The notes under the pieces are model-generated. The model saw only the letters and a program-made list of their open reading frames with translations, did no database searches and was not told where the DNA came from. Shown piece by piece: positions 746 to 19,595 of a stretch of 22,397 nucleotides of DNA. The first letter of the stretch is position 1, and each line of letters opens with the position of its first letter. Made by a program: the position numbers and the translations under genes. The DNA comes from a virus, in the IMG/VR virus record IMGVR_UViG_3300012936_000199, positions 1 to 22,397 of that record. One strand, 5' to 3'.

Positions 746-747
746 AA

Positions 748-1755: not shown

Positions 1756-1756
1756 T

Positions 1757-1772: not shown

Positions 1773-1777
1773 TACAC

Positions 1778-1804: not shown

Positions 1805-1834
1805 ATTATACTTGTCCCATAAAGACAAACACAC

Positions 1835-2476
1835 ATGACTCTATCTGCCTTAATAGCTGACGAGAAGCACATCATTGAATCATCATCTCTAGAGCAGTCT
1901 ACTAAGGTAGGACAGGTCTATTGTTATATCTCTTCCGGTCCATTACCTATGATTAAGATAGGGAAGGGTAAGAATGGTCGTCAACGTATGGCTAGCTGGA
2001 TCCAGGAGTATCCGCCCGAGTGGAGAGAAGGAGAGGTTGTCTTTATTATTGATAAGATGAATCAAAGTACCGCCGAGACGGCTTTCCATAAGTTCTTTGC
2101 AGATCAACGGGTAAGCCAGGAGTCTATGCGGAAACATCTAGGTATCGAATCATGGCAGCGCCTCCCCGATGGTGCGAGCGAGTGGTTTTACTGTGATACC
2201 TTTGTTAAAAACTCTTTCAGGTCTGTTGGTATTGATCTAGTAAAGATCTATAGGAGTGCAGCTAATAGAGAGGAACCACAAGAACTCTCTAGGTTTGAGA
2301 CTTGGTTCTACACACTGCTCTACCGGGCTAATCGCTTATTCAGGGGATTCCTTGGCTGGACAACTTTACTAATTACTACTATACTAGCAGTCACTGCCTG
2401 GGGCTCTTGGCTGTTCTTCGGAGCTACCATTTTCCTCGGTCTTTACATTGCAGGAGTACTATTCCCATCCAATTGA
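1835..2476 (+). CDS. T5orf172 / GIY-YIG-like domain protein with C-terminal membrane segment, 213 aa
   Basis: The N-terminal half fits the T5orf172 (Mug113-like) branch of the GIY-YIG superfamily: a VYCYI strand (28-32), IKIGKG (40-45) with a following R51, an E-x-x-x-H helix (E81, H85) and an EWFY strand (116-119). In related proteins these positions form the putative nuclease site. After a charged linker (about 135-170) comes a hydrophobic stretch at about 172-210 with room for two short membrane helices, ending near the C terminus. A membrane-anchored nuclease-like domain is unusual; possible roles are DNA degradation at the envelope or exclusion of other phages, both speculative. The gene lies just after a terminator and two bases before the next small gene, so it probably starts a new unit. 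No good Shine-Dalgarno is visible. Confidence 0.75.
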   Translation: MTLSALIADEKHIIESSSLEQSTKVGQVYCYISSGPLPMIKIGKGKNGRQRMASWIQEYPPEWREGEVVFIIDKMNQSTAETAFHKFFADQRVSQESMRKHLGIESWQRLPDGASEWFYCDTFVKNSFRSVGIDLVKIYRSAANREEPQELSRFETWFYTLLYRANRLFRGFLGWTTLLITTILAVTAWGSWLFFGATIFLGLYIAGVLFPSN

Positions 2477-2478
2477 CT

Positions 2479-2640
2479 ATGGAACAAGTCTTTGATATAA
2501 TCATTGAAGGACAGACGGTTCACAAAGGTATCTCGGAAGAGATGTTCTTTGATGTTATGTCTGACCTCTCAAATGCCTTTTACGAGGTTGGGTTCCCTAA
2601 CCCAGAAACCATTTCACACATCACCTACACCAAGGAGTAA
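2479..2640 (+). CDS. Hypothetical protein, 53 aa (paralogue of 748-942)
   Basis: Read from ATG 2479, two bases after the TGA of the preceding gene, which suggests coupling. The product begins MEQVFDIIIEGQTVHKGISE and ends HITYTKE. It shares with the 64-residue product of 748-942 the order strand, glycine or asparagine turn, V-H-x-x-[IL]-[ST]-E, aromatic and acidic helix, and final strand, so the two appear to be diverged duplicates flanking the glycosyltransferase and T5orf172 genes. The function is unknown. The end of this gene carries the Shine-Dalgarno sequence for the next one. A longer reading frame in another phase (2504-2860) overlaps it but has no family-like content. Confidence 0.75.
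   Translation: MEQVFDIIIEGQTVHKGISEEMFFDVMSDLSNAFYEVGFPNPETISHITYTKE
2632..2637 (+). promoter_or_regulatory. Shine-Dalgarno AAGGAG for the 2647 gene
   Basis: AAGGAG with nine bases to ATG 2647, lying inside the last codons of the preceding gene. It is the clearest ribosome binding site in the window and decides the start of the 44-residue protein. Confidence 0.75.
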
Positions 2641-2646
2641 TACACA

Positions 2647-2781
2647 ATGTTCGGAAAGACTCAGCTCAAGATTGAAAAAGCTGGAAAGAAGACCCGTCAG
2701 GGTAGTTCCCATCGTACAAAGCTCTCTGCGTCTTCTAGGAACGGCGCTAAGAAGCGTTATCGTGGTCAAGGTCGCGGTTGA
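2647..2781 (+). CDS. Small basic protein, 44 aa
   Basis: The product begins MFGKTQLKIEKAGKKTRQGS and ends NGAKKRYRGQGRG. It is rich in Lys, Arg, Gly and Ser, has few hydrophobic residues and ends in an R-Y-R-G-Q-G-R-type tail. It is probably a disordered nucleic-acid-binding peptide. I recall similar short proteins with a K-[KR]-Y-R-G-Q-G-R end in T4-like cyanophages, where no function is assigned; this is from memory and unverified. A strong Shine-Dalgarno nine bases upstream supports the start and efficient translation. It is followed by a structured intergenic stretch. Confidence 0.82.
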   Translation: MFGKTQLKIEKAGKKTRQGSSHRTKLSASSRNGAKKRYRGQGRG

Positions 2782-2788
2782 TAGAGAT

Positions 2789-2835
2789 CCCCTAGGGTCG
2801 GAAAAAAAAACTAACCCTTTGGGGTACCCTAGGGG
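2789..2835 (+). repeat. Perfect 10-bp inverted repeat around an A9 tract
   Basis: CCCCTAGGGT (2789-2798) is the exact reverse complement of ACCCTAGGGG (2826-2835). The 27-base loop contains a run of nine As (2802-2810) and a small ACCC/GGGT hairpin. The right arm overlaps the GGGGGC-TTC-GCCCCC hairpin at 2832-2846, so the two structures exclude each other. On the minus strand the A9 becomes T9 after a hairpin, so antisense termination is possible. Confidence 0.65.
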
Positions 2836-2844
2836 GCTTCGCCC
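2813..2844 (+). repeat. Intergenic GC-rich repeat, copy 2
   Basis: Second copy of the element at 482-512: AACCCTTT, GGGG, then TACCCTAGGGGGCTTCGCCC. It includes most of a 6-bp hairpin GGGGGC-TTC-GCCCCC (2832-2846) with no U-tract. Confidence 0.6.
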
Positions 2845-2860
2845 CCAAGAACCTAAATAA

Positions 2861-2916
2861 CCTGGGATAGGAACCCCACTAAAAGTTCTATTTGTACACT
2901 CTACCAATGAACTACC
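2861..2916 (-). other. Possible tRNA-gene relic (antisense)
   Basis: The reverse complement reads TAGTTCATTGGTAGAGT (2898-2914), close to the tRNA D-arm consensus, followed after a shortened middle by GGGGTTCCTATCCC (2864-2877), resembling a T-arm. The distance from the D-arm start to TTC is 41 bases, about five short of normal. The T-loop has CT where GA is expected, the anticodon stem is imperfect and no acceptor stem pairs. It is not a working tRNA; decay or chance are both possible. Confidence 0.3.
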
Positions 2917-3048
2917 ATGGGACGTCCAGTTGATCGTGTTGCCGGTGTTGTACTTGTTACAGACTATGGCGCACTTGACCGAGCATTAGAATTGAAAGCA
3001 AAGCGCGAAGCTGAAGCTGCCGAAGCCGAAGATAAGAGCGCTGAATAA
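2917..3048 (+). CDS. Hypothetical protein with acidic Ala/Glu tail, 43 aa
   Basis: Read from ATG 2917, directly after the tRNA-like scrap. The product begins MGRPVDRVAGVVLVTDYGAL and ends in a charged helix rich in Ala, Glu and Lys (about residues 25-43). The N-terminal part has a hydrophobic strand (V-V-L-V-T). I do not recognise it. The A-E-A-A-E-A-E tract suggests a helix or coiled-coil tail. A strong terminator begins seven bases after the stop, which supports a real transcription unit. Coding status rests on the open frame, typical codon use and that terminator. Confidence 0.55.
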   Translation: MGRPVDRVAGVVLVTDYGALDRALELKAKREAEAAEAEDKSAE

Positions 3049-3055
3049 GGTTACC

Positions 3056-3078
3056 GCCCCCGAAAGGGGGCTTTTTTT
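3056..3078 (+). terminator. Rho-independent terminator before the baseplate genes
   Basis: Perfect GCCCCC-GAAA-GGGGGC stem with a GNRA tetraloop followed by seven Ts. It insulates the accessory block from the baseplate genes that start at 3115. Confidence 0.92.
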
Positions 3079-3085
3079 GTATGTA

Positions 3086-3103
3086 CATAAATAAAAATAA
3101 ATA
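3086..3103 (+). promoter_or_regulatory. T4-type late promoter region for gp25
   Basis: Two overlapping late-promoter-like octamers, CATAAATA (3086-3093) and AATAAATA (3096-3103), follow the terminator. T4 late promoters use TATAAATA as their only core element. The second copy is part of ATAAATATCGAT, found again before gp8. With T4 spacing, transcripts from the second copy would have a leader of only about six bases, so the first copy may be the working one. Confidence 0.6.
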
Positions 3104-3114
3104 TCGATCTTGTA

Positions 3115-3519
3115 ATGGCGGAAGTCACCCGTATTTCTAGAAGATTTAAGGATATTAGTCTCTCGTTCCAGCCCCATCCTGTAACCGGCGACTTACCTGT
3201 ACTATTAAACGAGAATGCTATCAAGCAGTCCGTTAAGAACATAGTGCAAACAATTCCGGGTGAAAAGTTTTTCAACTCAGCTTTTGGTAGCGATACACGT
3301 GGATCATTATTTGAGTTGGTTGATATTGCAGTAGCAGATCAAATCAAAGTTCAGATTATTACTTCAATTGAGAACTTTGAACCAAGGGTAAATAATGTTG
3401 ATGTAAGTGTAAAGCTTGCATCCGACAGAAACGAACTAGACGTTACTGTTTTTTACGAAATTATCGGTCAGGACTTTCCTGCACAGCAATTCTCCTTCAT
3501 TTTAGAGGCAACTAGGTAA
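3115..3519 (+). CDS. 25: Baseplate wedge subunit gp25
   Basis: The 134-residue product matches the gpW/gp25 family in length (T4 gp25 is 132) and motifs: an N-terminal strand region ending in a polar loop (about 10-30), an NENAIKQSVKNIV helix (32-44), T-x-P-G-E-K-F-F (46-53), FGSDTRGSLFE (57-67) and the family hallmark E-P-R-V (89-92) before the C-terminal strands. In T4, gp25 sits in the wedge beside gp6 and gp53 and takes part in joining wedges and starting sheath assembly. The stop TAA shares its last base with the ATG of gene 6 (TAATG), so translation is probably coupled. It is expressed from the late promoter region just upstream; no Shine-Dalgarno is evident. Confidence 0.95.
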   Translation: MAEVTRISRRFKDISLSFQPHPVTGDLPVLLNENAIKQSVKNIVQTIPGEKFFNSAFGSDTRGSLFELVDIAVADQIKVQIITSIENFEPRVNNVDVSVKLASDRNELDVTVFYEIIGQDFPAQQFSFILEATR

Positions 3520-5435
3520 TGGCTTTTACTAAGTTTACCAATCTAGACTTTGACCAAATCAAACAATCTATCAAAGATTACCTCCGTGCTAACTCAAACT
3601 TCACGGATTTTGACTTTGATGGGTCAAACTTTAGCGTGCTTATCGATACTCTTGCTTATAACGCATATATCAACTCAGTAAACGCCAATATGATCGTAAA
3701 TGAGTCATTTTTGGACTCAGCTACGCTCCGTAGAAACGTAGTTTCCCTTGCAGGCAACATTGGATACACCCCAAGATCCAAAAAAGCGGCAATTGCTAAG
3801 GTAAAAATGACCGTTAGGGTCACTGCAGAGGTCCCAACAGTCACTTTGAAGGCTGGATTGGTCGCTGTGGGCAATGTTGAGAACACAGATTACACATTTT
3901 CCATCCCAGAAGACATTACAACGACCGTAATTGACGGAATTGCCCAATTTGGAACCGATGAAGAGCCAATTTCTCTCTTCCAAGGCACATATTTGACGAA
4001 TTCTTTCCAATTTGACGGATCTTTGGACCAAAGATTCATCATTAACAACTCAAGTATGGACTACAGCACCCTAGTTGTGCGAATTAAGGAGGAAAATGAG
4101 ACAACTCCTGGAAATAAGTGGTCCAGAGTGCAAAATATTATCGATGTAGACGCCGATTCTGAGATTTATTTTGTAAATGAGGTCCAACAAGAGAAATATG
4201 AGCTTATTTTTGGCGATGGTGTCTTCGGTAAGCCACTAAGAAACGGTCAAATCATCTCTGCAAGCTATATTCTCACCAATGGAGAGGATGGTAACGGTCC
4301 TTCACGGTTCGTTTTCCAAGGAAGCCTAGCAAATCCCAACGGTGGAGTTGTTATCCCTGCATCTACTGTCTCTCTAACCACCCTAGAAGCCGCTAGAAAC
4401 GGCTCTAACATCGAAGGCATAGATTCTATTAAGTATTACGCTCCGAAGCTCTACAGCGCCCAGTACAGGGCTGTGACGGGCAATGACTACGAAGCCATCA
4501 TTAAGGAGATCTATCCTAAGGCAGAAACTATCTCTGTTGTTGGTGGTGAAGAGCTAGATCCACCAAAATTCGGTAATGTCTTCATCAGCATCAAGCCAGT
4601 TAACGGTATTGAGGTTAGTGAGTTCGACAAAAAGATTATTTTGGACAAATTGAAGCAATATTCCATTGCTGGTATCACCCAGAATATCGTAGACCTCAAA
4701 ATCCTCTTTGTTGAGATCGATTCTTCCGTATATTACGACGACAACTTGGTTTCAAGTCCCCAAAGTCTACAAAGTTCCATTATTAGCTCACTAAACACCT
4801 ATTCTGGTTCTGTTGACCTTAATAAGTTTGGTGGTAGATTCAAATACTCCAAAGTTCAGAAGATTATTGACGATACCGACAAGGCAATCACCTCAAACAT
4901 CACTCGCGTGAGAATGCGTAGGAATTTGAGTGCCGTAACCGACGTATTTGCACAATATGAGCTTTGCTTCGGTAATGCGTTCTCTGTTGACCCACATGGC
5001 GGCAACATTAAGAGTACTGGATTCAATGTATTCGGTGTTGATCAGCTTCTATACCTAACTGACTTCCCCAATAAGGATGAGCAAGGAAATCTAGATGGTA
5101 GTGGTAAGGGTGTTATCAAGACATTCACACCAAACATCGAAACTGGTGGTATTACCATCGTCAATCCTAATGCTGGAGAAGTTGACTATACAAAGGGCGA
5201 AATTCAACTAACCACAGTTCGCTTTACTAACACCCAGAAGGAAGACAACGTAATTGAGATCCAAGCATACCCACTCTCCAATGATATCATCGGTTTGAAG
5301 GATTTGTACGTCTCATTTGCCGTTTCTAATAGTGAGATAAATATGGTTAGGGACACGATCTCCAGTGGTGAACAGATCTCTGGTATCGGTTTCGCAGTAA
5401 CCCCAAGTTACTCTAATACAAAGCTAACAAGGTAA
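3519..5435 (+). CDS. 6: Baseplate wedge subunit gp6
   Basis: The 638 residues compare well with T4 gp6 (660). The N-terminal region has FDFDGSNFSVLIDTLAYNA (31-49) and a following stretch ending SLAGNIGYTPRSKKA, characteristic of the gp6/baseplate-J group. FGDGVFGKPLRNG (231-243) is the shared glycine-rich turn. A region near 310-360 (YSAQYRAVTGNDYEAIIKE) is the usual baseplate-J middle domain. The C-terminal part (STGFNVFGVDQLLYLTDFP) is gp6-specific as I recall it. gp6 dimers form the inner baseplate ring and link wedges. The gene overlaps gene 25 by one base and is 17 bases before the giant gene. A GATAAATA near its 3' end may be an internal late promoter. Confidence 0.95.
   Translation: MAFTKFTNLDFDQIKQSIKDYLRANSNFTDFDFDGSNFSVLIDTLAYNAYINSVNANMIVNESFLDSATLRRNVVSLAGNIGYTPRSKKAAIAKVKMTVRVTAEVPTVTLKAGLVAVGNVENTDYTFSIPEDITTTVIDGIAQFGTDEEPISLFQGTYLTNSFQFDGSLDQRFIINNSSMDYSTLVVRIKEENETTPGNKWSRVQNIIDVDADSEIYFVNEVQQEKYELIFGDGVFGKPLRNGQIISASYILTNGEDGNGPSRFVFQGSLANPNGGVVIPASTVSLTTLEAARNGSNIEGIDSIKYYAPKLYSAQYRAVTGNDYEAIIKEIYPKAETISVVGGEELDPPKFGNVFISIKPVNGIEVSEFDKKIILDKLKQYSIAGITQNIVDLKILFVEIDSSVYYDDNLVSSPQSLQSSIISSLNTYSGSVDLNKFGGRFKYSKVQKIIDDTDKAITSNITRVRMRRNLSAVTDVFAQYELCFGNAFSVDPHGGNIKSTGFNVFGVDQLLYLTDFPNKDEQGNLDGSGKGVIKTFTPNIETGGITIVNPNAGEVDYTKGEIQLTTVRFTNTQKEDNVIEIQAYPLSNDIIGLKDLYVSFAVSNSEINMVRDTISSGEQISGIGFAVTPSYSNTKLTR
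5336..5343 (+). promoter_or_regulatory. Possible internal late promoter near the end of gene 6
   Basis: GATAAATA inside the coding sequence, 117 bases before the giant-gene start, differs from T4 TATAAATA at the first base. Chance occurrence is possible. Confidence 0.3.
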
Positions 5436-5452: not shown

Positions 5453-8400
5453 ATGATTGGTACTGGATTTGATGTGAGAGTAAAGATCCAAGATATCGTT
5501 GCTTCTCAACTCCCTGAATTTATTTTATCTGATAGTCCACTAACTGACGACTTTCTCAGACAGTTTTACGTCTCCCAGGAAATCCAGGGTGGCGCAGTTG
5601 ACCTTGCGTCTAATTTAGACCAGTACCTAAACCTAAAGGACCTTACTAGCACAAAGAGTGACGATAACTTTCTAACCGCTGATGTTGATTCCTCACAAGA
5701 CATCATTCGGGTAACATCAACCAAGGGCTTTCCTCAGGAGTGGGGTCTGCTCAAAGTTGGTGATGAGATCATTACCTACACCGGTATTACCACAAACAGC
5801 TTCACAGGAGCCATCAGGGGCTTCTCAGGCATCACTGCATACGCCGCACCTAACGATCCCTCCAACCTAGTATTTGAAGCCACCAGCGCCGCCTCTCACA
5901 CCGCTGGTGACTCCGTTGAAAACCTAAGTTCACTCTTCCTAAAGGAGTTCTACAACAAGCTAAAGTTCACCTTTGCTCCTGGTTTTGAAGACATCGATAC
6001 ATCATCTGATGTAAATGCTGCTAACTGGATCCAGAATGTACGTTCATTCTTCCAGTCTAAGGGTAGTGAAGAATCCATCAAGATTCTATTCAAGGTTCTA
6101 TATGGCGAAGATCCTACCGTCATTGACCTAGAAGAGTATCTAATCAAGCCTTCTTTTGCTGAGTACAACAGAGCTGACTATGCTATTGCTGTACCCATCA
6201 CCGGCAACCCCGTTGATTTGCTAGGTAAGACTGTAAAGCAGTCCAATGCAAACATCCTCGGTTCTATCACACAGATCGAGCCCTTCATCCGTAAGGGTCG
6301 TGTATACTACAAGATCTTCTACTTTGTAAGCAACGAAGAGCTATCAAAAGAGCGTAAGAGCTTTACCGTCCCCGGTAGAACTCAAGTTCAGCGCAAGTGG
6401 GATTCTAGTCAGCAGACTCTTACTGTTGATACCACCATTGGCTTCAGTGATACCCATTCATTCGTAACTGCTGATGGTACACACTTCACCTATACAGACT
6501 ACACCGTAAACCAGTTCCTAGGTGTTACTTGTGCAGATCCCAACTATGTGCTAGAAGTTGGTACTGAGATCAGTGACGAGGTTTATGTTGTTGGTCAGAA
6601 CGATAAGGGTGAAGATGTAGTTCTACTACTAACTGGTGTTGTTAGTGACCTTGAATTTGAAGTAGATCCAATCCTACTTCAAGAAGACGAGGAAATCTTT
6701 GTAGATTCTCTTGGGGAGAATATTCAAAGTGAGCGTGTTACCAGAAACGATCAAACATTCAAAGAGATTGTAGCCAACAGCTTTGTCTACAACACATCTG
6801 TTCGCTTTGATGTTGATGACGTTAGTGGTACTGTATTCACCATTAAGAACTCATACCTTGATAAAGCTTTCATCAACGTTGGTGATACCGTAGACATCCT
6901 AGCAAGCGGCACCAATACAGTCTATGCTTCTAACAAGCCAGTTACTGAAGTATCCTACGAAAATGCTACCATCACCGTAGAAGACATCACTGGTGTACCT
7001 CTAGGTGCGAATGTTGATATTCGTAGAAACCAGAAGTATGCAAACAGCAGCAGTGCAGCTATTGATTATGGTAACAATGCTGTTCTATCAAACACACTAA
7101 ACCTATATGATGCTACTGACTTTGACGGCACCCTATTCGTTGCTACAAACTCACTACCATCATACGACATTGATATTGCTCTAACTGAGAATATCATCAC
7201 AGACATCAGTGCAAGCAACCTAGACAACTTCAACAGCCTAGAAGGAACCTACGAGATCGTTCGTGTACCCCAGGACGTCAACTTCCTAACAGGTGAGAGA
7301 GTTGTTTACTCTGTAAGTGGTGGCGCTGAGCCAATCTGTGATCCAGGTGCATACATCGTTGAGGTTCTAAGCAGCCGCAGCTTCCGTCTATATGCATCAC
7401 CTTCATTCATCGGCACACCTAGCTTCATCCCCCTCACTCTAACCACAGAGCCTGGTGAGCACATCTTCACTCTAGAGAGTCAGAAGGACCGTTCTATCAA
7501 TAGCCAGAAGAAGTACGTTAAGATTCCTCTACCTCAGGAAGGCATCTACTCTTCCCCAGATAGAACCCCTGAGCAGATTGAAGACGAAGCCACTGTTGCT
7601 CTACTAACCAATGGCGTTGAGATTAAGACTCCACGGGGCAGGGACAAGGTATACTACGGTCCACTAACCTCCGTAGACGTAATCTTTGGTGGAGATGATT
7701 ACAGTGTAATTACACCCCCAGAACTAACCATTGCAGATTCTACTCTAGAGAACTTCGGTGCTACCGCATCAGCTACTGCTGCTATGAAGGGTAAGCTAGA
7801 GAAGATTCTAATCGACCCTCAGGACTTCGACATCAACCGCGTATTCAGCATCACCGTAACAGGTGGTAATAGCGATGGTGCTACTGCTGAGCCACAGATC
7901 GAAGAGAGAAACCGTTCAATCACTTTCGACGCACGTGAGTTCGTATTCGGTGGTGGTATTGACCCCATCAACGAGTCAATCACATTCCCCATCGATCACA
8001 ACATCCAGCAGGGCGAGCCCCTTACCTATAACAACAGAGGTAATCCTAGCATCCCAACTGGTCCATTCGATGGATCCAACTCAAACAATGGTACAACTCT
8101 AGCCAACGGTGGAATCTACTACCCCAACATTCTAAACAGCAGAAGTATTGAGATCTACAATACTCTAGAGGATCTAAACGCCGGTATTAACACCGTAGGC
8201 TTTACTTCCGAATCTTCTGCGTTTGGTATTCAGTCATTCGACACAGAGCTAAAGCCTCAGATCGTTTCTGCAACGATCACAAATGATGGTGGCTTCTTCT
8301 ACAATAGAGAGATTGTAATTGGACGGGATGGCGTATCTTTCGCGTTCAGTAAGTTTATCTACAACGATCACGGCTTTGAGACTGGCGAGAAAGTTGTCTA

Positions 8401-11400
8401 CTCTGGTAGCGGCAATCGTGTTGTACCCCTAGTACGTAATCAGGAGTACCTAGTTCTAAAGCTAGATGAGCACACCTTCCGTCTATGTGAGATTGGTCCT
8501 GACGACGATCCAACATTTGACTTGGATAGACATGATTATGTCGTATTTGAGAATACTGGTGGCGCATCTGCAACACACGTCATCTCATACCCAGAGATCG
8601 TAGCTGAAGTTGTTGTATCATCATCCTCAGTACCCAACCCAGTTGTAACTGCAACTCCCTACATCAGAGGTGAGATTGAGCGTGTCTACATCACTGGAAA
8701 TGGTTTCTATGGTTCAGACATCATCAACTTTGAAAAAGCTCCCATCATCAAGGTCAGTGAAGGTGAAGGTGCTAAGCTAGTTCCCATCATCAGCGATGGT
8801 GTACTTGGTTCTGTTCAGATTCTATCCAAGGGCAAGAACATCACAGACTCCCCAACAATCACTCTAGTTGACCCAACTGGAGCTGGTCAGGGTGCAAGTC
8901 TACGTGCCGTCGTTCAAGGCGGTGAAATTGTTGATGTTATTATCATCAATGGTGGTTTCTCCTATGCGCCACAATCTAAAATTGAAGTTATTGATAGTAA
9001 CAGAAGAGCTATCCTAGCTGCACGTGTAAGACCCCTAACAGTCAACAACACACTAAAGGAAGGCTTTGAGTCTCTATCTGGTAACCGCTACACAGTACTA
9101 TCTTACGACCGAATTATTCGTGAAGACGTCTATAGCGACACAGGTGATGAGCACTCCCCTATTATTGGTTGGGCTAAGGACGGTAATCCAATCTATGGTC
9201 CATTTGGTTACAGTGAGTTCGACAACGCCAACTCAGAGATCCGTGCAATGGTATCTTCCTACAAGGAGAGCGGAAGCTACATCCAAGGAAGACCCGATGA
9301 ATTGAAGTACCCCATCGGTTTCTTCATTGAGGATCATAGGTTTGAAGGTGACGGTGACCTAGACCAGTACAATGGTAGATATTGTAAGACCCCTGAGTTC
9401 CCTAACGGAATCTATGCTTACTTTGCAACAGTAGACCCCTCCGATAACTCCACCACAAGACCCCCAGTATTCCCATACTTCATTGGTGAGTTCTTCAGGG
9501 ATTCTCCTAGCACCGAGCAGGATGAACTACCCCAGTCATACAGCATCCTCAATAAGCCCATCTACAGGAACACCTTCCCCTATGCGGTAGGCAACCCCTT
9601 CATTGGAAGTGAGTTTATTGACCAGTCATACCTAACAGACATCCAGACCACAGTTATCACTGACTTGAACAGTGGTAGCGTATCTGACGTCTCCATTGTT
9701 GGTGCCGGTAGAAGCTATGCTGTTGGTGACGTTGCAGTCTTCGATACTGAGGAAGACGGTCTATCCGTACGGGTATCCAAGATTGAGGGTGTTAATGTAG
9801 AAAGAGTATCACTAGACGTACTTTCTTACAGTAGAGAGTTCACTAAGATCATCCGTAAGGATGAGGATACCGTTCGCGTATACATCGACGGCGACCATGA
9901 GTACCTAGATCAGGACCTAGTTGTTATCAGTGGCTTGAGTACTGCTCTAGAGCCCCTAGGTGGTGCAACTAAGATCAATGTAAGTCGTGGACAAATGTCC
10001 TTGTACTCACCATTCAGGGATTCACCATTCGACGGTGTATTCGATATCTTCGTTAACAGCATCAATGAAAATGTAAGTGTCGGTTCAAGTATCGTTATCT
10101 TGAATGATGAGCCAGGTGGTGGAGATGAGTACCTAGAAGTTCTTAACATCTTCCCAGTAAACAAGGCTCTACGTGTTAGAAGAACAACTGGCTACGGTGT
10201 AACTCACCCCATCGGTGCACCTATCGTTACTGTACCTAACTTCTTCGACATCGATAACTCAACCGTTGAGTTCAGATCCGAGATCGATGAAGAGTATTTC
10301 TTCAACCCCATCCAGTCAGTTGGTTATGGTGTGGAGACTGGTGTAGGCATAACTGCTGTATATCGGATTGGTGAGATCGAGAACGTAATCTCCATCCAGA
10401 CTCAGGCAATCTTTATGCCTAACAACACCTTCAAGAAGAACGAGAAGGTAACTTTCAGTAAGCCTGCATCCAAGGATAACATTGCTGCTGTCGATGCTGA
10501 CGGCAACACATTCATTATCCCACAGATCCAGAGTGAGTTCTTTATCCATAAGACTGCACAGAACTTCGTTGGTCTAAAGACTACTAAGAATTCTGAGCCC
10601 CTCCTATTCTCTAATCCAATCTCCATCAGTGGACAGGATAGCCCAGAGTACTCTATCAAGAGCCAAAGGAAGTATGAGGACTGCAACCTAGACCGCTTCT
10701 CCTCATTGGTCCAGACTAGCCAGGATCACCTACTAAGAACCGGTGATATTGTTGATCTAGAGGTCATCTCAAACAGATCACGTGGCGATCTAAACAACCC
10801 AAGGGTCATCGTTCAGTTCGATGATTCCAGACAGCTATTGATCATCGATCCCCAGGATGCTGATTCAGTTGACTTTGAGAACAACCTAATTGTTCTAGAG
10901 GACCACAACTACAGAAGTGGCGATCTACTATTCTATCAGAACCCAAGCACTGCTATTGGTGGTCTAATCTCAGGCAGAACATACTACGTCATCGTATTTG
11001 ATAACGATAGGTTCTACCTAGCAGACACCCAGTTCGACACCATTACTGGTTCTGAGCTTCCCATCAACATCACATCTGCTGGTATTGGTAACAACAGGTT
11101 CTTCAAGGTCAATCCTGAGATCCGCGTTATCTCAAACAACGAGCTTGTCTTCGATACAAGTGACGCATCACTAGACGGTTACGAACTCACTCTATTCAGT
11201 GATAGTGCTCTAACCGAGGTGATGGAGAACAATAGTAAGGATTCCGACTTCGTTATTAGAAGGAATGATGCCGGAACTCGTCTATTCGTTCGGTACTCTG
11301 TTAACAACCCAGAGACCTTCTACTATGCACTAACCAAAGACGGTATTCTAGTTGAGCCTAACAGAGATGCACCTAAGCATAACAGTGTAACCTACAACAA

Positions 11401-14400
11401 GAGTGGTTATACTTCAGGTGGTGCTATCACAAATCTATCTGAGAGAAGCTTCCGTTTCCCACTATCAGTTAAGCCCAACACCCCAATCTACAGCACAACA
11501 AACGAGAACTGCATTCTAAAGTACACAACCAGATCATCCAACACCCTTGGACCTATTGCCCAGGTTGATATTGTATCAACTGGTCAGAACTTCACCACTC
11601 TACCTGAGTTCATCTCAATGCAGAGTGCTACTGGTACTAACGCAGAACTACGTGCAAACACCGAGACCATCGGTACCATTGCTGCATACAGAATCCAGAA
11701 CCCCGGTTGGGGATACTATGCTGATACCAGCTTGCGTCCAAAGGGTCAGATTCAGCCTAAGGTTGAGTTTACCGATAGTGACTTTATCACCGACATTGAG
11801 ATTCTCGAAGGTGGTAAGGGCTATCAGACCCCTCCAGTACCCGTTATAATCGATTCTGTTACCAGAGAGGAAGTTGATGCTGGTTCATTGACTATCCAGC
11901 TCCAGTCCTCTGTTATCGTTGACGTAGAGATCAATCTATCTCCTACTGGTCTATCCAAGAACAGTCACGATCTATTCGTTACTGATGGAGACAACGGAAT
12001 CCCCATTCTATCAATCATCGATATTGATAACGTCAGTGGACGTGTTATCTACGAGATGCAGACTCCTATCTCTGGATACAACAGCTACCCATTTGCTGTT
12101 GGTGATGAGGTATTTGTTGAGAACGTTGCTGGTGTTGATGGACAGACAACATACCTAAACTCCAGAGAGATTGGTTATCTATTCGGTAAGGTTGTAGTTG
12201 CACTACCAACCAACCCAGTAGTAATTACCGTTGAGTACCCAGAAGAGTACTGGGATAAGATCGGTAATGCAATCCGGGATCAGGATTCATTCTCTACCAT
12301 CGTTAACAAGAAGAACTACCCACAGTTTAATGTATCACAGGCAACTGCTATCCTCGTTACTGGTGAGAGACTATCTTACATCAACGAGCAGGGCGTTGTT
12401 CAGGATACTGACTTGATTGTTGAAGAGAGCAACGAGGCATTCTTCAAAGTTAAGGGCAACTTCGACATCCGTGTAGGTGACGTTCTACAGGGTAATGTTA
12501 GTGGTATTATCGTTACTGTAACTGGTTTCAATCGCCAGGCATGTACATTCACAACCAAGTCAATCTCTAGATTCGCTAATGGTTGGAACGATACAATCGG
12601 CTTCACCAACGAAGAATCACAGGCACTACCTGATAACGACTACTACCAGAACCTATCTTACTCCATTAAGAGTACTGTTGAGTTCGATGATCTAATCGGT
12701 CCAGTTAACAAGCTAGTTCACCCATCCGGTCTAAAGAACTTCGCCGACACCAAGATTGAGTCAACTGGCTCAGTTAGCGTAAGTGGTGTTACTACAGACA
12801 CAGTAACGATTGACCTAATTGGTCTAACTGACGTTGCTGATACACCTTTGCGCGTTGATAGAATCAACTGTTGGGACTTGGGTTATGACGACGAGGTAGT
12901 AAACAACAGGTCAACTGCTGTTCGCTTCAACGCACTAACCGACAACAAGCGTCTAACTGATTACTTCGCACTACAGACTAACCGCGTTCTACTAATGGAC
13001 GACATCAGTGGTGAATTCATTGATGCAGACAACAGTGCTGAAGTAGTTCGTTATGTTGACTTCGACATCGCCGATGCCCCTATGGTTCGCGTTGTTGGTC
13101 AGATCCGTAATCCACTAGATGACGGTATTCAGTTGGTTGAGAGCGTAATCCTTTATGAGGGTGCAAACACCACCACTCTACAGAAGGCAGTCGTGTCCTC
13201 TCTAAACGACCTAGGATACGGTGAGATCGCTGGTCAAGACAGAAGCACCCTAGGACGCCCAACGGTACGTTACACCCCCTACGAGGACTTCCTAGACACC
13301 ACTGACGTCGATCTAAAGATCCTAAGTGCTCAGTATGTAACTGATCAGAACCCACAACAGCAGGACATCGGTTATGTAAGGTTGGCTTCTGAATCTGGAA
13401 CAGTTGCTCCTGGTCAAACTGCAACCATCCACACCACCAGAAACAGTGCTCCTGCTATTGCAGCATACATCCAGACCAGAAAGGATACTGCACGGATTGA
13501 AGATCTACGCTACACCGAGGTTTATGCCTTCAACGGTGGTGGTGGAGACTCATACTACGCTGAGTACACATTCGACACTCAAGCAACAACCGGATACAGC
13601 AACAGCAACAGTGACCTAGTATTCACGTCTGAGGATCTAAGCAACAACCGCGTTAGATTGAAGATCACCAACAACGGCACTACTTCTACTAAGTATGACG
13701 TTAAGATTACTGAGTTTACTAACCAGCCAGTAGGTTCTACCGTATATCGCTTCAAGCGTGGTAGTATCCCAACCGGTACTGAGAAGAGTATCAACCTAAT
13801 CTCAACCTATGAGAACACAATCTCATCTGTTCCTGATATCACTCTACTAACTCTAGCTGCAAATGAGTTCCAGACCGCAAGGTGCATGGTAAACGTTCGC
13901 GGCACACGGTTGAATGCAATCTATCAGGTAATGATCGCCAACTCTGCTGGTAGTGCATACGCTACTGCATATCCCTTCATCGAAGAGGGTAATGATGGCG
14001 TTGGTATTGGTACCTTCGGTGCTATCCAGAGCGGTAACGACTTTGAGCTACACTTCTATCCTGAGTCAGGCATCCCTGTAGAGAGCATCCAGCTAGTAAC
14101 TTATGCTGAGGCATTCATTCGCGAGAATGACTACCGCAACTACGTTGATGAGCCACTAAACTACGGTGTTGTTACTGAGAACTACTATATCAAGCCATAC
14201 AATGCGCCATTCGGTAACCGCCGTGACCGTATTAGGTTTGAGTTGACCAGTGACGGTGTACCCATCTACGAGAAGAGATTCTTCCCACCAACAACTGTAA
14301 ATGATACCACATTCAGTATCCCCAATCACTTCTTCAGCAGCAATGAAGAGTTGTACTACCTACCCGGCGATTCCGTCGATGGTCCTAGTGCACCTCTAGA

Positions 14401-17113
14401 GATTGAGCCCACAGTTGACGTTGATGGTAACACAATCAACACAATGCCTACCCGCGTATGGGCTATCAAGCGTAGTCTAAACAGCTTCGCTCTAAAGGCA
14501 TCTCCTACTGGTAATGCAATCCGCGTTATCGGTAATGGTCAGGGCAACGAGCACCGTATCGGCATGACTAAGAAGAACGAAAAGACTATCATTACAGTTG
14601 ATGGTATCGTTCAGTCACCAATTGCTAATACAAACCTAGTCTACACCGTTGATGAGGCTCTAGATGCAACAGAAACCTTTGTTACACTAGCTGGTATTGG
14701 TACAATTCGTGCTGGTGATCTACTACGGATCGACGAAGAGATCCTCAACATTGTTGACGTAGGATTCTCTACAAGCTCTGTTGGACCAATCTCTAATACT
14801 GGTTCTATCCCTCTAGTTGAGGTTCAGCGTGGTTCAGTCGGTACATTGGCTGCAACACACAGCAACCAGTCCGAGGCTAAGCTACTCAAGGGAAGCTACA
14901 ACATCGTTGAGTCGGATATCGTCTTCACCCAGGCACCATCTGGTAAGGGCAACCTAAACATCAACGAATCCAACATGGTTGACCTAAACTCAACCTTCCA
15001 GGGACGTACTTTCCTCCAGAAAGAGTATGACCAGATCAAGATCTACGATGATATCAGCAACCAGTTTGATGGTATCAGCAATAAGTATGAGATCACTTTC
15101 AACGGTCAGCAGGTTGATGAAATCGAGAACGGAAGCGGCATTCTACTAATTAATGACGTTTACCAGACTCCAACCACAGAAAACAACGAGGGCAACAACT
15201 ACTTCTATGAGTATAACGATACTGTCGGTATCAACAGCGTTGTCTTCACTGGTATCACATCATCCAATGGTCAGAGAGTTGAGTCCCAGTTTGACGTCAA
15301 CCAGAACCAGATCCCCAGAGGTGGTCTAATCGTCTCCGTCGGTTCTAGTCCCGGTCTTGGCTATGCGCCTCTAGTTGGTGCTCTAGTCGATCCAACTGTA
15401 TCTAACGGCACGATCACCGCTATCAACTCACAAGAGAGAAGTGGTTCTACAACTGCAGTTCAGTATGCACGTTACAATAACATCAGTGGTGAGATGCTAG
15501 TCTCCCTCAAGGGAACGCAGGCTTCTGCTCCTGTATCCATCACGAATGCTACGTACACGAACATCTCTGGTCTACTTGTTATCGAGACAACCACATCACT
15601 ATCAAGCATCGGTTTGAATGCTGGTGATATCATTGAGTTGGCTGGATTAGTATTCCAGTGCGATCAAGGTTCCAAGGCATACCCAGATGAGGATCCACTA
15701 TTCGTAGTCGATACAGTCCTCGACGATAGGAAGTTCACTGTATTCGTCGGCGCATCTGAGTTTGAGCATACCTGGACAAGTGGTGGTACATTCCAGAAGT
15801 TTGAGCCCTTCTCATTCGACAAGGAGCTTCTAAATCCCAAGTTTGTATTCCTAGATGGTCTAACATTCTCCTGCCCATCAGGTACACCCAACAACTCAAC
15901 CACTATCTTCCCTGATACAACCAACCACCTCCCCGTCACCAGACGTGTTGACGCAGCTCACCTACTAATCTATGTTGGTGCTTCTGAGTTCCCACACTTC
16001 TATGAGTCTGGTGGTACCATCGGAGCGTTCACTAAGCTACGTCCCGGAAGAGGCTATAGGGAGACCGTGAAGGTGCTTGCAGTTGAAGAAGGTCACACAG
16101 GTGCCGAAGCCGTAATCGAAGGCATTCCAGGCGCAGGTGGCGTCCTCTCATTCAGCATTATCAGTGGTGGATCAGGCTATACCAACCCAAGCCTATTCGT
16201 TCCCGATCCTGATTACGCAAACCTACCTGTTGAGTGTGTCTTCAGACGCGATGGTACAACAGAAACCGGTAAGAATCTATTCGTTACTCTAACTGTTGGC
16301 GCAGCTAAGACAACTGCAATCGGTCGTTCTGAGTTCTTTGAGGTTGACTCCTTTGAGATCACTAACCAAGGTTATGGTTTCCAAGAGGGTGATATCCTAC
16401 AGATTCCTGATCTAGTTGTTGATGAGAGATTGAGTGCTCCTATCGAGCCATTCCAGCTCACAGTCACCAAGACATTCAACGACAACTTCACCGCATATAA
16501 CTTCGGTGAGCTTGATTACATCGACTCTATCAAGAAACTACAGAATGGTTTAAGAACCAGATTCCCACTAGAGTACAACGGTGAGCTACTATCCTTCGAG
16601 ATTGACCCCAATAACGAGGATTCTGCAGCTATCGAACCAGCAAACGTTCTATTGATCTTTGTTAACACCGTTCTACAGGTCCCCAATGAGAGTTACTTCT
16701 TCAAAGGTGGAACAACATTCCAGTTCCTAATTCCACCTCGCCCAGAAGATGACGTTGACGTTTACTTCTATCGCGGCAAGAGAGGCATTGACTCAGTTCA
16801 GGTTGATATCCCTGGCGAGAAGATCAAGCCTGGTGATGAGATTCAAGTTCGCAAGAACGATTCTTATGACCCAAGTAAGACTCAGGACATCAGAACTGTT
16901 ACTGAAATTATCGAATCAGATACAGTAAGGACCTCCATCTACGTTGGTAACAATGACTTGGATACCAATAACCCAAGACCAGTTGCATGGGACAAGCAGA
17001 AGCGTGACCTATTCATCTACGGTGAGCCTGTTACTAAGGTTCGCGACAGTCTTGAGAGTATCATCAAGCCAACTGCTGCGATTGTTAAGAGCTTCAACGT
17101 TAACGACAATTAG
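5453..17113 (+). CDS. Giant baseplate/tail structural protein in the gp7 position, 3886 aa, with YHYH-like domain
   Basis: It lies between genes 6 and 8, where T4 has gene 7 (1032 residues), so it is probably the gp7 counterpart and nearly four times as long. The N terminus (1-65; SQLPEFILSDSP, FYVSQEIQGGAVDL) and about 190-235 (SFFQSKGSEESIKILFKVLYGED) resemble the start of large cyanophage gp7-like proteins, as I recall them. A YHYH-like domain has H1234 and WAKDGNPIYGPFGY at 1240-1253. Beta-rich 'G-x-G-Y' modules lie near 735-800, 1075-1194, 1409-1447, 2033-2135 and 3530-3585. Two RG-type modules are at 72-150 and 3067-3137, and a tandem pair with VGASEF-x-H and SGGT at 3398-3449 and 3469-3525. 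No signal peptide or membrane helix is seen. The frame continues past the TAG stop for 288 codons. Leucine is mostly CTA. Confidence 0.85.
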   Translation: MIGTGFDVRVKIQDIVASQLPEFILSDSPLTDDFLRQFYVSQEIQGGAVDLASNLDQYLNLKDLTSTKSDDNFLTADVDSSQDIIRVTSTKGFPQEWGLLKVGDEIITYTGITTNSFTGAIRGFSGITAYAAPNDPSNLVFEATSAASHTAGDSVENLSSLFLKEFYNKLKFTFAPGFEDIDTSSDVNAANWIQNVRSFFQSKGSEESIKILFKVLYGEDPTVIDLEEYLIKPSFAEYNRADYAIAVPITGNPVDLLGKTVKQSNANILGSITQIEPFIRKGRVYYKIFYFVSNEELSKERKSFTVPGRTQVQRKWDSSQQTLTVDTTIGFSDTHSFVTADGTHFTYTDYTVNQFLGVTCADPNYVLEVGTEISDEVYVVGQNDKGEDVVLLLTGVVSDLEFEVDPILLQEDEEIFVDSLGENIQSERVTRNDQTFKEIVANSFVYNTSVRFDVDDVSGTVFTIKNSYLDKAFINVGDTVDILASGTNTVYASNKPVTEVSYENATITVEDITGVPLGANVDIRRNQKYANSSSAAIDYGNNAVLSNTLNLYDATDFDGTLFVATNSLPSYDIDIALTENIITDISASNLDNFNSLEGTYEIVRVPQDVNFLTGERVVYSVSGGAEPICDPGAYIVEVLSSRSFRLYASPSFIGTPSFIPLTLTTEPGEHIFTLESQKDRSINSQKKYVKIPLPQEGIYSSPDRTPEQIEDEATVALLTNGVEIKTPRGRDKVYYGPLTSVDVIFGGDDYSVITPPELTIADSTLENFGATASATAAMKGKLEKILIDPQDFDINRVFSITVTGGNSDGATAEPQIEERNRSITFDAREFVFGGGIDPINESITFPIDHNIQQGEPLTYNNRGNPSIPTGPFDGSNSNNGTTLANGGIYYPNILNSRSIEIYNTLEDLNAGINTVGFTSESSAFGIQSFDTELKPQIVSATITNDGGFFYNREIVIGRDGVSFAFSKFIYNDHGFETGEKVVYSGSGNRVVPLVRNQEYLVLKLDEHTFRLCEIGPDDDPTFDLDRHDYVVFENTGGASATHVISYPEIVAEVVVSSSSVPNPVVTATPYIRGEIERVYITGNGFYGSDIINFEKAPIIKVSEGEGAKLVPIISDGVLGSVQILSKGKNITDSPTITLVDPTGAGQGASLRAVVQGGEIVDVIIINGGFSYAPQSKIEVIDSNRRAILAARVRPLTVNNTLKEGFESLSGNRYTVLSYDRIIREDVYSDTGDEHSPIIGWAKDGNPIYGPFGYSEFDNANSEIRAMVSSYKESGSYIQGRPDELKYPIGFFIEDHRFEGDGDLDQYNGRYCKTPEFPNGIYAYFATVDPSDNSTTRPPVFPYFIGEFFRDSPSTEQDELPQSYSILNKPIYRNTFPYAVGNPFIGSEFIDQSYLTDIQTTVITDLNSGSVSDVSIVGAGRSYAVGDVAVFDTEEDGLSVRVSKIEGVNVERVSLDVLSYSREFTKIIRKDEDTVRVYIDGDHEYLDQDLVVISGLSTALEPLGGATKINVSRGQMSLYSPFRDSPFDGVFDIFVNSINENVSVGSSIVILNDEPGGGDEYLEVLNIFPVNKALRVRRTTGYGVTHPIGAPIVTVPNFFDIDNSTVEFRSEIDEEYFFNPIQSVGYGVETGVGITAVYRIGEIENVISIQTQAIFMPNNTFKKNEKVTFSKPASKDNIAAVDADGNTFIIPQIQSEFFIHKTAQNFVGLKTTKNSEPLLFSNPISISGQDSPEYSIKSQRKYEDCNLDRFSSLVQTSQDHLLRTGDIVDLEVISNRSRGDLNNPRVIVQFDDSRQLLIIDPQDADSVDFENNLIVLEDHNYRSGDLLFYQNPSTAIGGLISGRTYYVIVFDNDRFYLADTQFDTITGSELPINITSAGIGNNRFFKVNPEIRVISNNELVFDTSDASLDGYELTLFSDSALTEVMENNSKDSDFVIRRNDAGTRLFVRYSVNNPETFYYALTKDGILVEPNRDAPKHNSVTYNKSGYTSGGAITNLSERSFRFPLSVKPNTPIYSTTNENCILKYTTRSSNTLGPIAQVDIVSTGQNFTTLPEFISMQSATGTNAELRANTETIGTIAAYRIQNPGWGYYADTSLRPKGQIQPKVEFTDSDFITDIEILEGGKGYQTPPVPVIIDSVTREEVDAGSLTIQLQSSVIVDVEINLSPTGLSKNSHDLFVTDGDNGIPILSIIDIDNVSGRVIYEMQTPISGYNSYPFAVGDEVFVENVAGVDGQTTYLNSREIGYLFGKVVVALPTNPVVITVEYPEEYWDKIGNAIRDQDSFSTIVNKKNYPQFNVSQATAILVTGERLSYINEQGVVQDTDLIVEESNEAFFKVKGNFDIRVGDVLQGNVSGIIVTVTGFNRQACTFTTKSISRFANGWNDTIGFTNEESQALPDNDYYQNLSYSIKSTVEFDDLIGPVNKLVHPSGLKNFADTKIESTGSVSVSGVTTDTVTIDLIGLTDVADTPLRVDRINCWDLGYDDEVVNNRSTAVRFNALTDNKRLTDYFALQTNRVLLMDDISGEFIDADNSAEVVRYVDFDIADAPMVRVVGQIRNPLDDGIQLVESVILYEGANTTTLQKAVVSSLNDLGYGEIAGQDRSTLGRPTVRYTPYEDFLDTTDVDLKILSAQYVTDQNPQQQDIGYVRLASESGTVAPGQTATIHTTRNSAPAIAAYIQTRKDTARIEDLRYTEVYAFNGGGGDSYYAEYTFDTQATTGYSNSNSDLVFTSEDLSNNRVRLKITNNGTTSTKYDVKITEFTNQPVGSTVYRFKRGSIPTGTEKSINLISTYENTISSVPDITLLTLAANEFQTARCMVNVRGTRLNAIYQVMIANSAGSAYATAYPFIEEGNDGVGIGTFGAIQSGNDFELHFYPESGIPVESIQLVTYAEAFIRENDYRNYVDEPLNYGVVTENYYIKPYNAPFGNRRDRIRFELTSDGVPIYEKRFFPPTTVNDTTFSIPNHFFSSNEELYYLPGDSVDGPSAPLEIEPTVDVDGNTINTMPTRVWAIKRSLNSFALKASPTGNAIRVIGNGQGNEHRIGMTKKNEKTIITVDGIVQSPIANTNLVYTVDEALDATETFVTLAGIGTIRAGDLLRIDEEILNIVDVGFSTSSVGPISNTGSIPLVEVQRGSVGTLAATHSNQSEAKLLKGSYNIVESDIVFTQAPSGKGNLNINESNMVDLNSTFQGRTFLQKEYDQIKIYDDISNQFDGISNKYEITFNGQQVDEIENGSGILLINDVYQTPTTENNEGNNYFYEYNDTVGINSVVFTGITSSNGQRVESQFDVNQNQIPRGGLIVSVGSSPGLGYAPLVGALVDPTVSNGTITAINSQERSGSTTAVQYARYNNISGEMLVSLKGTQASAPVSITNATYTNISGLLVIETTTSLSSIGLNAGDIIELAGLVFQCDQGSKAYPDEDPLFVVDTVLDDRKFTVFVGASEFEHTWTSGGTFQKFEPFSFDKELLNPKFVFLDGLTFSCPSGTPNNSTTIFPDTTNHLPVTRRVDAAHLLIYVGASEFPHFYESGGTIGAFTKLRPGRGYRETVKVLAVEEGHTGAEAVIEGIPGAGGVLSFSIISGGSGYTNPSLFVPDPDYANLPVECVFRRDGTTETGKNLFVTLTVGAAKTTAIGRSEFFEVDSFEITNQGYGFQEGDILQIPDLVVDERLSAPIEPFQLTVTKTFNDNFTAYNFGELDYIDSIKKLQNGLRTRFPLEYNGELLSFEIDPNNEDSAAIEPANVLLIFVNTVLQVPNESYFFKGGTTFQFLIPPRPEDDVDVYFYRGKRGIDSVQVDIPGEKIKPGDEIQVRKNDSYDPSKTQDIRTVTEIIESDTVRTSIYVGNNDLDTNNPRPVAWDKQKRDLFIYGEPVTKVRDSLESIIKPTAAIVKSFNVNDN
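14651..14862 (+). other. Second copy of the RG-type structural module
   Basis: Residues 3067-3137 of the giant protein. D-A-T-E-T-F-V-T-L, then a G-D-L-L-R-I-D-E-E-I strand pair, then Q-R-G-S-V-G-T-L-A-A-T-H. The same order occurs near the N terminus (residues 72-150: K-V-G-D-E-I-I-T-Y-T, then I-R-G-F-S-G, then A-S-H-T). Confidence 0.5.
15644..16021 (+). repeat. Tandem protein-level repeat (VGASEF/SGGT) in the giant gene
   Basis: Unit 1 spans residues 3398-3449 and unit 2 spans 3469-3525. Both start G-L-[VT]-F-x-C-x-x-G, end in V-G-A-S-E-F-x-H and then S-G-G-T. Unit 2 has an extra loop (N-N-S-T-T-I-F-P-D-T-T). The pattern suggests a duplicated beta domain. Confidence 0.6.
17111..17113 (+). 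other. In-frame TAG interrupting the giant gene
   Basis: Codon 3887 is TAG. The same frame stays open for 288 more codons to TAA at 17978-17980. The codons between the TAG and the first possible start (ATT CTA CTA TCA AAC GTA GAC) have the CTA leucine bias of the gene itself, so they look like former or still translated coding sequence. Confidence 0.75.
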
Positions 17114-17134
17114 ATTCTACTATCAAACGTAGAC

Positions 17135-17980
17135 TTGTTTGAATACGAGGAGACACTAGGAACCGTCATTCCTTCCATCAAGGCTAGGGCATACAACCCA
17201 ACCGCAGGCGAGCCTGTAGAGCTACGGGTTGTAATGAACGGAGATCGCGTACAAGGCGTTGCTGTTCTAAACGCAGCAACCAACAGCGGTTACAGCAACG
17301 GTGATACCATCCGGTTCAACACATCACCAACAGGAGCCAGGGCACAAGCTAACCTACTCGTATCTGGTGGAAGAGTAACAGCCGTGGTAATGACTAATCA
17401 GGGCAGTGGTTATACCTCACCTCCTGGATTCGTCGTCTCAGATCCATCCCAAACATACGAGGATGTTAATGAGATTGGTAACATTGAGGGATGGTCCTCC
17501 ATCATCACTTCAATCACACCATCCTCCTCTGGTCCATTCAACCGGTCACTAATCATCGGCTATAAGACCGTTGATCCGCTGGTTCTATCAGGTGATCTAA
17601 AGCCAGGATACAGAATCTCCGTAACGAATACGTTTGTTGGCTCAGGCGTACAGGCATACGGATCTAACTCCTCAGACTTGATTTCCGTTGGTACTAATTA
17701 CCTAAACGCGGTATATCAAGTGGTTTCCAACTCACCAACTGCAAACGGCGGTACATTGACTGTTAACGTATCAGGAACTACTGATCTAAGTGGTGTAGCG
17801 TCATCCGGCGATAACCTAGGCGGATTCAGTTGGGGTAGATTGACTAACCTAACACGCGAGTTCCCACGGCAGTTTACAGTTGATCCAACAGCTTATACTG
17901 ACGACTTTGCGAACTACCCAACGTTGATCAGAACATCTGAGGGTCTACGTAACCGTGGAGGTCTAGGCAAAGAGGGCTAA
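17135..17980 (+). CDS. C-terminal continuation of the giant structural protein (split by TAG)
   Basis: An open frame of 281 codons from TTG 17135, in the same phase as the giant gene and directly after its TAG. The first in-frame ATG is 17234, which would drop 33 residues; neither start has a Shine-Dalgarno, so independent initiation is weakly supported. The product repeats the 'G-x-G-Y' module of the giant protein twice (NSGYSNGD at 50-57; GSGYTSPPGF at 90-99, after a G-A-R-A-Q-A-N strand). Its end (SWGRLTNLTREFPRQF, then a polar tail) looks like the C terminus of such large cyanophage structural proteins, as I recall them. Read through, the full product would be about 4175 residues. Best explanation: one gene broken by a nonsense change, a sequencing error or programmed read-through. 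A separate small gene is less likely. Confidence 0.65.
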   Translation: MFEYEETLGTVIPSIKARAYNPTAGEPVELRVVMNGDRVQGVAVLNAATNSGYSNGDTIRFNTSPTGARAQANLLVSGGRVTAVVMTNQGSGYTSPPGFVVSDPSQTYEDVNEIGNIEGWSSIITSITPSSSGPFNRSLIIGYKTVDPLVLSGDLKPGYRISVTNTFVGSGVQAYGSNSSDLISVGTNYLNAVYQVVSNSPTANGGTLTVNVSGTTDLSGVASSGDNLGGFSWGRLTNLTREFPRQFTVDPTAYTDDFANYPTLIRTSEGLRNRGGLGKEG

Positions 17981-17985
17981 AAAGT

Positions 17986-18041
17986 AGGGGGGCGATGAGC
18001 GTATAAATATCGATATAAAGGTATTTGCATCATTGCCCCCT
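17986..18041 (+). promoter_or_regulatory. Imperfect inverted repeat enclosing the gp8 late promoter
   Basis: AGGGGGGCGATGAGC (17986-18000) pairs with GCATCATTGCCCCCT (18027-18041), leaving two single-base bulges (G17992, A18029) and one G-T pair. The 26-base loop contains TATAAATA. The stem ends six bases before the gp8 ATG. A transcript started in the loop lacks the left arm and cannot fold this way; a read-through transcript can. No T-run follows, so it is not a standard terminator. Confidence 0.72.
18002..18009 (+). promoter_or_regulatory. 8: Late promoter TATAAATA for gp8
   Basis: A perfect T4 late promoter core in the gap before gene 8. With T4 spacing, transcription would begin near 18015 and give a leader of about 33 bases. 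The extended motif ATAAATATCGAT (18003-18014) is identical to 3097-3108 upstream of gp25. Confidence 0.82.
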
Positions 18042-18047
18042 TATACT

Positions 18048-19595
18048 ATGGCTGCTCTAATCACTGATGGCTTTCGTCTACTCAATGCAGACAATTTCAT
18101 TGAATCAGTAAGCGATCCAGATAATTCATACTATATTTTCGTCGGTCTTACCAACCCAGTTGGTAATGGCTACGGACGTACACCGGACTGGAATCAAGAT
18201 CCCCCAAGTCCAGAAGACAGTATTTCATACACCAGACACGTGTACGACACCATGCTTTACGGGAGACGTATTACTCCCGGTAACGTAAAGCGTGTTATTC
18301 GTCGTATCGACTGGAAGCGAGGAACTCGCTATGAGCAGTATCGTGATGACTATAGTGTAAATAATGTTTCTCCAAATACCGGTTCTACTCGTCTATATGA
18401 TGCAAACTACTACGTAGTAAATAGCGAGTTCCGTGTATATGTCTGCATTAGCAACGGTTCTAGTGGAGACAACCCCAAGGGCAATGGTTCTGAAGATGAG
18501 CCAAACTTTGTTGATACCGAACCATCCGTAGCAGGTAGCAGCGGCGACGGATATGTTTGGAAGTATCTATTCACAATTTCCCCTGCCGACGTTATCAAGT
18601 TTGATAGCACCGAGTATATTACCGTACCTAACGACTGGTTGACTACAACCACCCCACAGATCGTTGCTATTCGTGAGAGTGGCGATTCAGATCTAAATGA
18701 TAGCCAATTGAAGCACATCTACATCGATCAGAGTGGCGAAGGTTATTCAGGTACTGCAAACCAGGAAGTATCCATCATCGGTGACGGTGAAGGTGCTGAG
18801 GCTATTATTGACGTCAGTTCTGGTCGTATTACCCGCGCTCTAGTTTCTAAGGGCGGTAAGGGCTACACATGGGGTCTAGTTGACCTAGGTAACCTAAACC
18901 AGAACGCAACCAGAGCTGCTAAGTTGGATGTTATTATCCCTCCTTCAAAGGGTCATGGATATGATATCTACGAAGAGCTTGGTACCGATAAGGTTATTGT
19001 TTATGCTCGTTTTGACGACTCTACTCAAGACTTCCCAATCGACACCAAGTTTGCTCAGATTGGTCTAATCAAGAACCCAACTATCAAGAACACAACCAGC
19101 ATCTTCAGTGAGAATACTTTCACTGCTGCAGCTTCTATTAAGTTCACCTCCTTCACCGGTACTGTCCGGGTAGGTGACGTAATCGAGCAGGTTACTTCTA
19201 CAGGCATTGTCGCCAAAGGTTATGTTGCTTCATTCGATGAAAGCACACTAGTCTTGAAGTACACCCAAGATAGATCCCTATATTATAACCCACTAGTCTA
19301 CACAAACCAAGACTATATCGGTATTACAACTTCTGGTCATAAGGTTTCCTTTGAATCTTCAGCCAGTGCTATCACAACCGGCGATGGTTTTACTGGTGCG
19401 ATTGATACTTCCTTCTCTGGAAACACAATCACAGTGGGCAATAGGAACGTTGATTTGGGTAGCCAGTTCATAAATGGGCTCGCTGAATCAGAGATAAATA
19501 AACCTAGCGGAGAGATTTTATATCTCGACAACAGACCTGAGGTAACTAGGAATCCTCGTCAAAAGGAAGACGTTAAAATCATTTTGGAATTCTAA
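18048..19595 (+). CDS. 8: Baseplate wedge subunit gp8 (enlarged)
   Basis: The 515-residue product shares T4 gp8 landmarks: a short N-terminal helix and strand with Y-x-I-F-V-G (28-33), P-x-D-S (55-58), VIRRIDW (83-89; VIPRRDW in T4), YVVNSEFRVYVC (122-133), GDGYVWKYLF (167-176) and the C-terminal SGEILYLDNRP then QKEDVKIILEF (487-515). T4 gp8 has 334 residues. The extra length falls in two stretches, about 214-305, holding 'G-x-G-Y' repeats like those of the giant protein, and about 355-485. gp8 dimers connect the wedge core to the gp10/gp7 region in T4. I chose ATG 18048 over an in-frame TTG at 18033, which lies inside the upstream stem. It has its own late promoter. Confidence 0.93.
   Translation: MAALITDGFRLLNADNFIESVSDPDNSYYIFVGLTNPVGNGYGRTPDWNQDPPSPEDSISYTRHVYDTMLYGRRITPGNVKRVIRRIDWKRGTRYEQYRDDYSVNNVSPNTGSTRLYDANYYVVNSEFRVYVCISNGSSGDNPKGNGSEDEPNFVDTEPSVAGSSGDGYVWKYLFTISPADVIKFDSTEYITVPNDWLTTTTPQIVAIRESGDSDLNDSQLKHIYIDQSGEGYSGTANQEVSIIGDGEGAEAIIDVSSGRITRALVSKGGKGYTWGLVDLGNLNQNATRAAKLDVIIPPSKGHGYDIYEELGTDKVIVYARFDDSTQDFPIDTKFAQIGLIKNPTIKNTTSIFSENTFTAAASIKFTSFTGTVRVGDVIEQVTSTGIVAKGYVASFDESTLVLKYTQDRSLYYNPLVYTNQDYIGITTSGHKVSFESSASAITTGDGFTGAIDTSFSGNTITVGNRNVDLGSQFINGLAESEINKPSGEILYLDNRPEVTRNPRQKEDVKIILEF
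19493..19500 (+). promoter_or_regulatory. Possible internal late promoter near the end of gene 8
   Basis: GATAAATA inside gp8, 106 bases before the next start. It mirrors the GATAAATA 117 bases before the giant gene, in the 3' end of gene 6. Confidence 0.3.

Follow-up and report, generated by a model that had tools for sequence, protein, structure and literature searches.

The cyanophages S-CAM7 and ACG-2014f carry, between gp6 and gp8, a giant gene at the gp7 position that is annotated as a single coding sequence (CDS) of 12,945 nt in the former and 12,678 nt in the latter, and a giant gene occupies the same place in P-SSM2. During assembly of the T4 wedge, gp7 takes its place as one ordered component of the pathway (PMC3004832). 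The sequence considered here is the uncultured virus record IMGVR_UViG_3300012936_000199, and the window analysed is the entire record of 22,397 bases. Gene order and homology (Pfam and PHROGs) identify it as a T4-like cyanophage of the Kyanoviridae type, with gp25, gp6, a giant gene at the gp7 position and gp8 arranged in the same order as in S-CAM7 and ACG-2014f. The giant gene matches those of the latter two phages in position and length, and the proteins are collinear from end to end, the final 288 residues included, but the genes of these two phages are uninterrupted whereas that of the window contains one in-frame TAG, 288 codons from its end. This TAG is very probably a nonsense difference private to the contig, arising either as a sequence error or as a real defective or conditional mutation, in an otherwise intact gene. 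A one-off change of this kind is the most likely explanation because the gene is uninterrupted at this site in every comparable relative.

The frame that begins with ATG at 5453 (open reading frame (ORF) 5453-17113, 3,886 amino acids, plus strand) ends at a TAG at 17111-17113, and the same phase continues for 288 codons (17114-17977) to a TAA at 17978-17980, so that the coordinates given in the initial annotation are correct. The TAA represents the ancestral end of the gene, as the genes of relatives stop at the corresponding point, following a G-L-R-x-x-G-G motif. An open frame of 288 codons would be expected by chance about once in a million (our own arithmetic, using a stop rate of 3/64), and homology shows the downstream codons to be coding. 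The CTA CTA that follows the TAG had been noted as matching the leucine bias of the gene, and this is borne out by codon counts, CTA making up 71% of leucine codons before the stop and 68% after it.

The comparison set consisted of 172 other loci that span the stop site in one open frame, representing 147 distinct C-terminal sequences. A stop codon was found in the TAG column in none of the 172, and all have a sense codon there, which is what an alignment with homologues had been proposed to reveal. Across these loci the column is a variable one (Glu in 45%, Gln in 11%, the remainder mixed), and 20 closer relatives were also viewed at the residue level. The flanks are conserved, with 99% Pro fourteen residues ahead of the TAG and, from nine to twelve residues past it, F, Y and E at 96-98%, all of which are kept in the window, and the window tail also retains the invariant positions of a 37-sequence alignment. 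No relative was found that ends at the TAG position or that carries a separate small gene for the tail, the arrangement that had been named as grounds for rejecting an interrupted single gene. An exact search for the sequences flanking the TAG in two collections, one of other viral contigs and one of genomes, returned no match.

The 288 downstream codons encode the genuine C-terminal domain of the gp7-position protein. The PHROG family phrog_2885 (4,179 columns, a baseplate wedge subunit described as 'baseplate wedge initiator') aligns collinearly across the TAG, with columns 3-3873 matching the 3,886 codons before it (5453-17110, plus strand) and columns 3915-4178 matching the part after it. 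The name gp7 rests on this annotation and on the position of the gene between gp6 and gp8. Searches with the 288 downstream residues (tblastn) returned 63 cyanophage-type records. In S-CAM7, ACG-2014f, Sf-CH8, S-T4, P-SSM2 and S-SRM01 the matching region is part of a single large annotated gene directly upstream of gp8. One further matching record carries no annotation. In S-SKS1 a separately annotated CDS ends with the domain, but the split is a frame change that lies several hundred residues ahead of the position of the window's TAG. When the final 334 residues were modelled with AlphaFold, the TAG being represented by a placeholder residue, the model was beta-rich with a mean predicted local distance difference test (pLDDT) score of 82, and the predicted viral structures nearest to it are C-terminal parts of baseplate wedge initiators from other cyanophages. 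Among solved structures, a Foldseek search of the tail against the PDB gave no match at E below 0.001, and a phmmer search for sequence similarity to solved baseplate structures matched no PDB chain. The best PDB fold comparison (Z of 7.8 over about 76 residues) involved only common beta-barrel arrangements, and no function was therefore assigned to the tail. A polypeptide of about 4175 residues produced by read-through or suppression had been suggested from the window alone. The first part of this proposal agrees with the comparison, in that the ancestral product, like the proteins of S-CAM7 and ACG-2014f, was a single chain of about 4,200 residues, while read-through or suppression is unsupported.

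Read-through would require that the TAG is fixed and partly decoded, either by an amber-suppressor transfer RNA (tRNA) of phage or host or through a leaky context, giving a short gp7 and a long form with an extra C-terminal domain. The intact downstream domain, with its conserved residues, is compatible with this, as is the location of the TAG near the border between a conserved module, about 60% identical to relatives, and a faster-evolving domain (17114-17977) that is only 32-36% identical. Genes maintained by read-through are expected to show a conserved stop followed by a conserved extension, but here the extension is conserved and the stop is not. TAG is, moreover, an ordinary terminator in this group, ending the gp7-type gene in 41 of 170 spanning loci, and the RNA downstream of the window's TAG folds no better than shuffled sequences (z -0.21). 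The 22-kb window contains no tRNA genes, although it covers only part of the genome, and a suppressor tRNA could be encoded elsewhere. The tRNAs of S-CAM7, ACG-2014f, P-SSM2 and Sf-CH8 were searched and do not include an amber suppressor, once an apparent case in S-CAM7 had been corrected. That gene (L194 1501-1574; MT586120.1 143316-143389) is called tRNA-Pyl (CTA) by both GenBank and ARAGORN, but sister isolates annotate the same gene as tRNA-Arg, and a better-paired anticodon stem (TCGCT/AGCGT) encloses a 7-nt loop, CTTCTAA, with the anticodon TCT. It appears to be a tRNA-Arg read out of register, and so the lead to an amber suppressor fails. A literature search for stop-codon read-through in cyanophages found no reports. 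Partial decoding of the TAG is considered very unlikely, and it is likewise very unlikely that the amber codon has become fixed and partly read through in one cyanophage lineage, with some gp7 copies in the virions carrying the C-terminal beta domain and others lacking it. Should the stop be both fixed and read through, it would give a baseplate protein a conditional domain, a rare situation. The TAG itself is present in the sequence, but the conditional C terminus proposed in the initial annotation is not supported, given that no relative has the stop, that TAG is a normal terminator, that no suppressor tRNA was found in the four relatives searched, and that the RNA downstream shows no unusual structure.

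A split gene was also considered, in which translation restarts at a TTG at 17135, the first common in-frame start past the TAG, or at a later ATG, and the C-terminal domain joins the wedge as a separate protein. From 17135 onwards the frame is open, and the TTG at that position, about 20 nt past the stop, is near enough for restarting ribosomes. It is not, however, preceded by a recognisable Shine-Dalgarno sequence or other ribosome binding site, as had been noticed earlier, and none of the relatives has such a small gene. Some conserved residues are situated upstream of the later ATG, and the TTG is itself located among those conserved at +8 to +12. A restart in either place is very improbable.

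Phages in which TAG is reassigned to an amino acid (code 15), such as crAss-like phages, do exist (PMC11210395; see also PMC9523058), and they resemble the window in having an in-frame TAG in a phage gene. Their recoding is genome-wide, with many in-frame TAGs across genes, whereas the window has a single TAG in one gene and its relatives use TAG as a terminator. Reading TAG as sense would join only one interruption in the about 4,175 codons of the gp7-type gene, and none of the other genes identified in the window has an in-frame interruption. Furthermore, a methylase-like ORF in the window ends with TAG just beyond its methylase domain, and under reassignment it would continue past the domain end into unrelated sequence. 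Reassignment of TAG throughout this phage is thus extremely improbable.

To assess the frequency of comparable interruptions, 325 loci carrying gp7-type sequence, of which 1,332 kb is distinct, were scanned for breaks. Six were found in total: the window TAG, a TGA in contig L152, a TAG and two frameshifts in contig L108, and one frame change in S-SKS1. Contig L152 (IMGVR_UViG_3300007973_000028) is also uncultured and, like the window, has a gp7-type gene that is open except for one in-frame stop. Its TGA (1289-1291) is near the 5' end of the gene, and at this point its sister contig L153 has a codon for Gly, the two being 99% identical across the 400 bases that were compared; no such sister is known for the window. 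Contig L108 (IMGVR_UViG_3300002231_000877) is of poor quality, with Ns, and in addition to the lone TAG and two frameshifts in the gp7-type gene it has two more frameshifts in the next structural gene. One of its frameshifts is near the place matching the window's TAG, but, the contig having Ns and five breaks altogether, this was not counted as evidence that the site is special. Lone stops therefore occur in this gene in uncultured contigs at about 2 per 1.3 Mb, or in about one in fifty full-length gp7 genes (our own arithmetic, with L108 counted and the window left out).

In the isolate genome of S-SKS1 (L027, HQ633071.1), frame changes are seen at about 2177-2195 and 6716-6838, affecting the gp7-type gene and the next structural gene. 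Both genes are split in the annotation or in the sequence itself, and sequencing errors are a possible cause.

A gene broken by mutation or by an assembly or sequencing error, one of the options raised at the outset, is the best explanation of the TAG, all 172 other loci being open here and private stops occurring elsewhere in the gene. An error at the TAG base would mean that the phage makes gp7 at full length. Should the mutation be real, gp7 would be made without its last domain and the phage would probably be defective, or else it would rely on suppression or on complementation by a co-infecting wild type. Loss of function is plausible in view of the ordered role of gp7 in T4 wedge assembly (PMC3004832). 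Several observations weigh against a private nonsense difference. No near-identical relative was found, the closest gp8 being at most about 76% identical and the closest tail at most about 38%, so the TAG is 'private' only in comparison with diverged relatives. The rest of the contig is without any break, which gives no indication of generally poor sequence quality. Lastly, no other stretch of the gene has codon usage as atypical as that of the tail (z -2.9). The same is seen in the tails of relatives whose gene is intact, namely L110, L111 and L112 (z -2.4 to -2.9), and for this reason codon usage was not accepted as evidence of decay. Loss of conserved residues was likewise rejected as a sign of decay: the window tail keeps 37 of 60, a low count among the 147 sequences, but the near relatives L002, L006 and L011 keep only 57-64%. 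The domain diverges rapidly and may be exchanged between phages.

As it stands, the finding matters little except as a warning: isolated in-frame stops do turn up in contigs of uncultured phages (about 1.3 Mb of distinct gp7 sequence contained two more), and such stops should be compared with relatives before read-through is proposed.

The remaining baseplate genes of the window are gp25 (3115-3519) and gp6 (3519-5435), both assigned by Pfam and PHROGs, and an intact gp8 (18048-19595, plus strand), which matches phrog_438 over its full length as well as Pfam Phage-Gp8. A large structural gene 3' of gp8 runs off the end of the window. Directly upstream of the baseplate genes, an ORF at 1835-2476 has a weak match to T5orf172 (GIY-YIG-like) and perhaps specifies a homing endonuclease. 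Between the gp7-type gene and gp8, the 67 nt at 17981-18047 form one strong hairpin (z -5.2 for 17978-18060), within which there is a T4-type late-promoter box, TATAAATA (18002-18009). The pairing of hairpin and late-promoter box is also seen in the relatives L003, L114, L112, L022 and L008, while other relatives show only one of the two.

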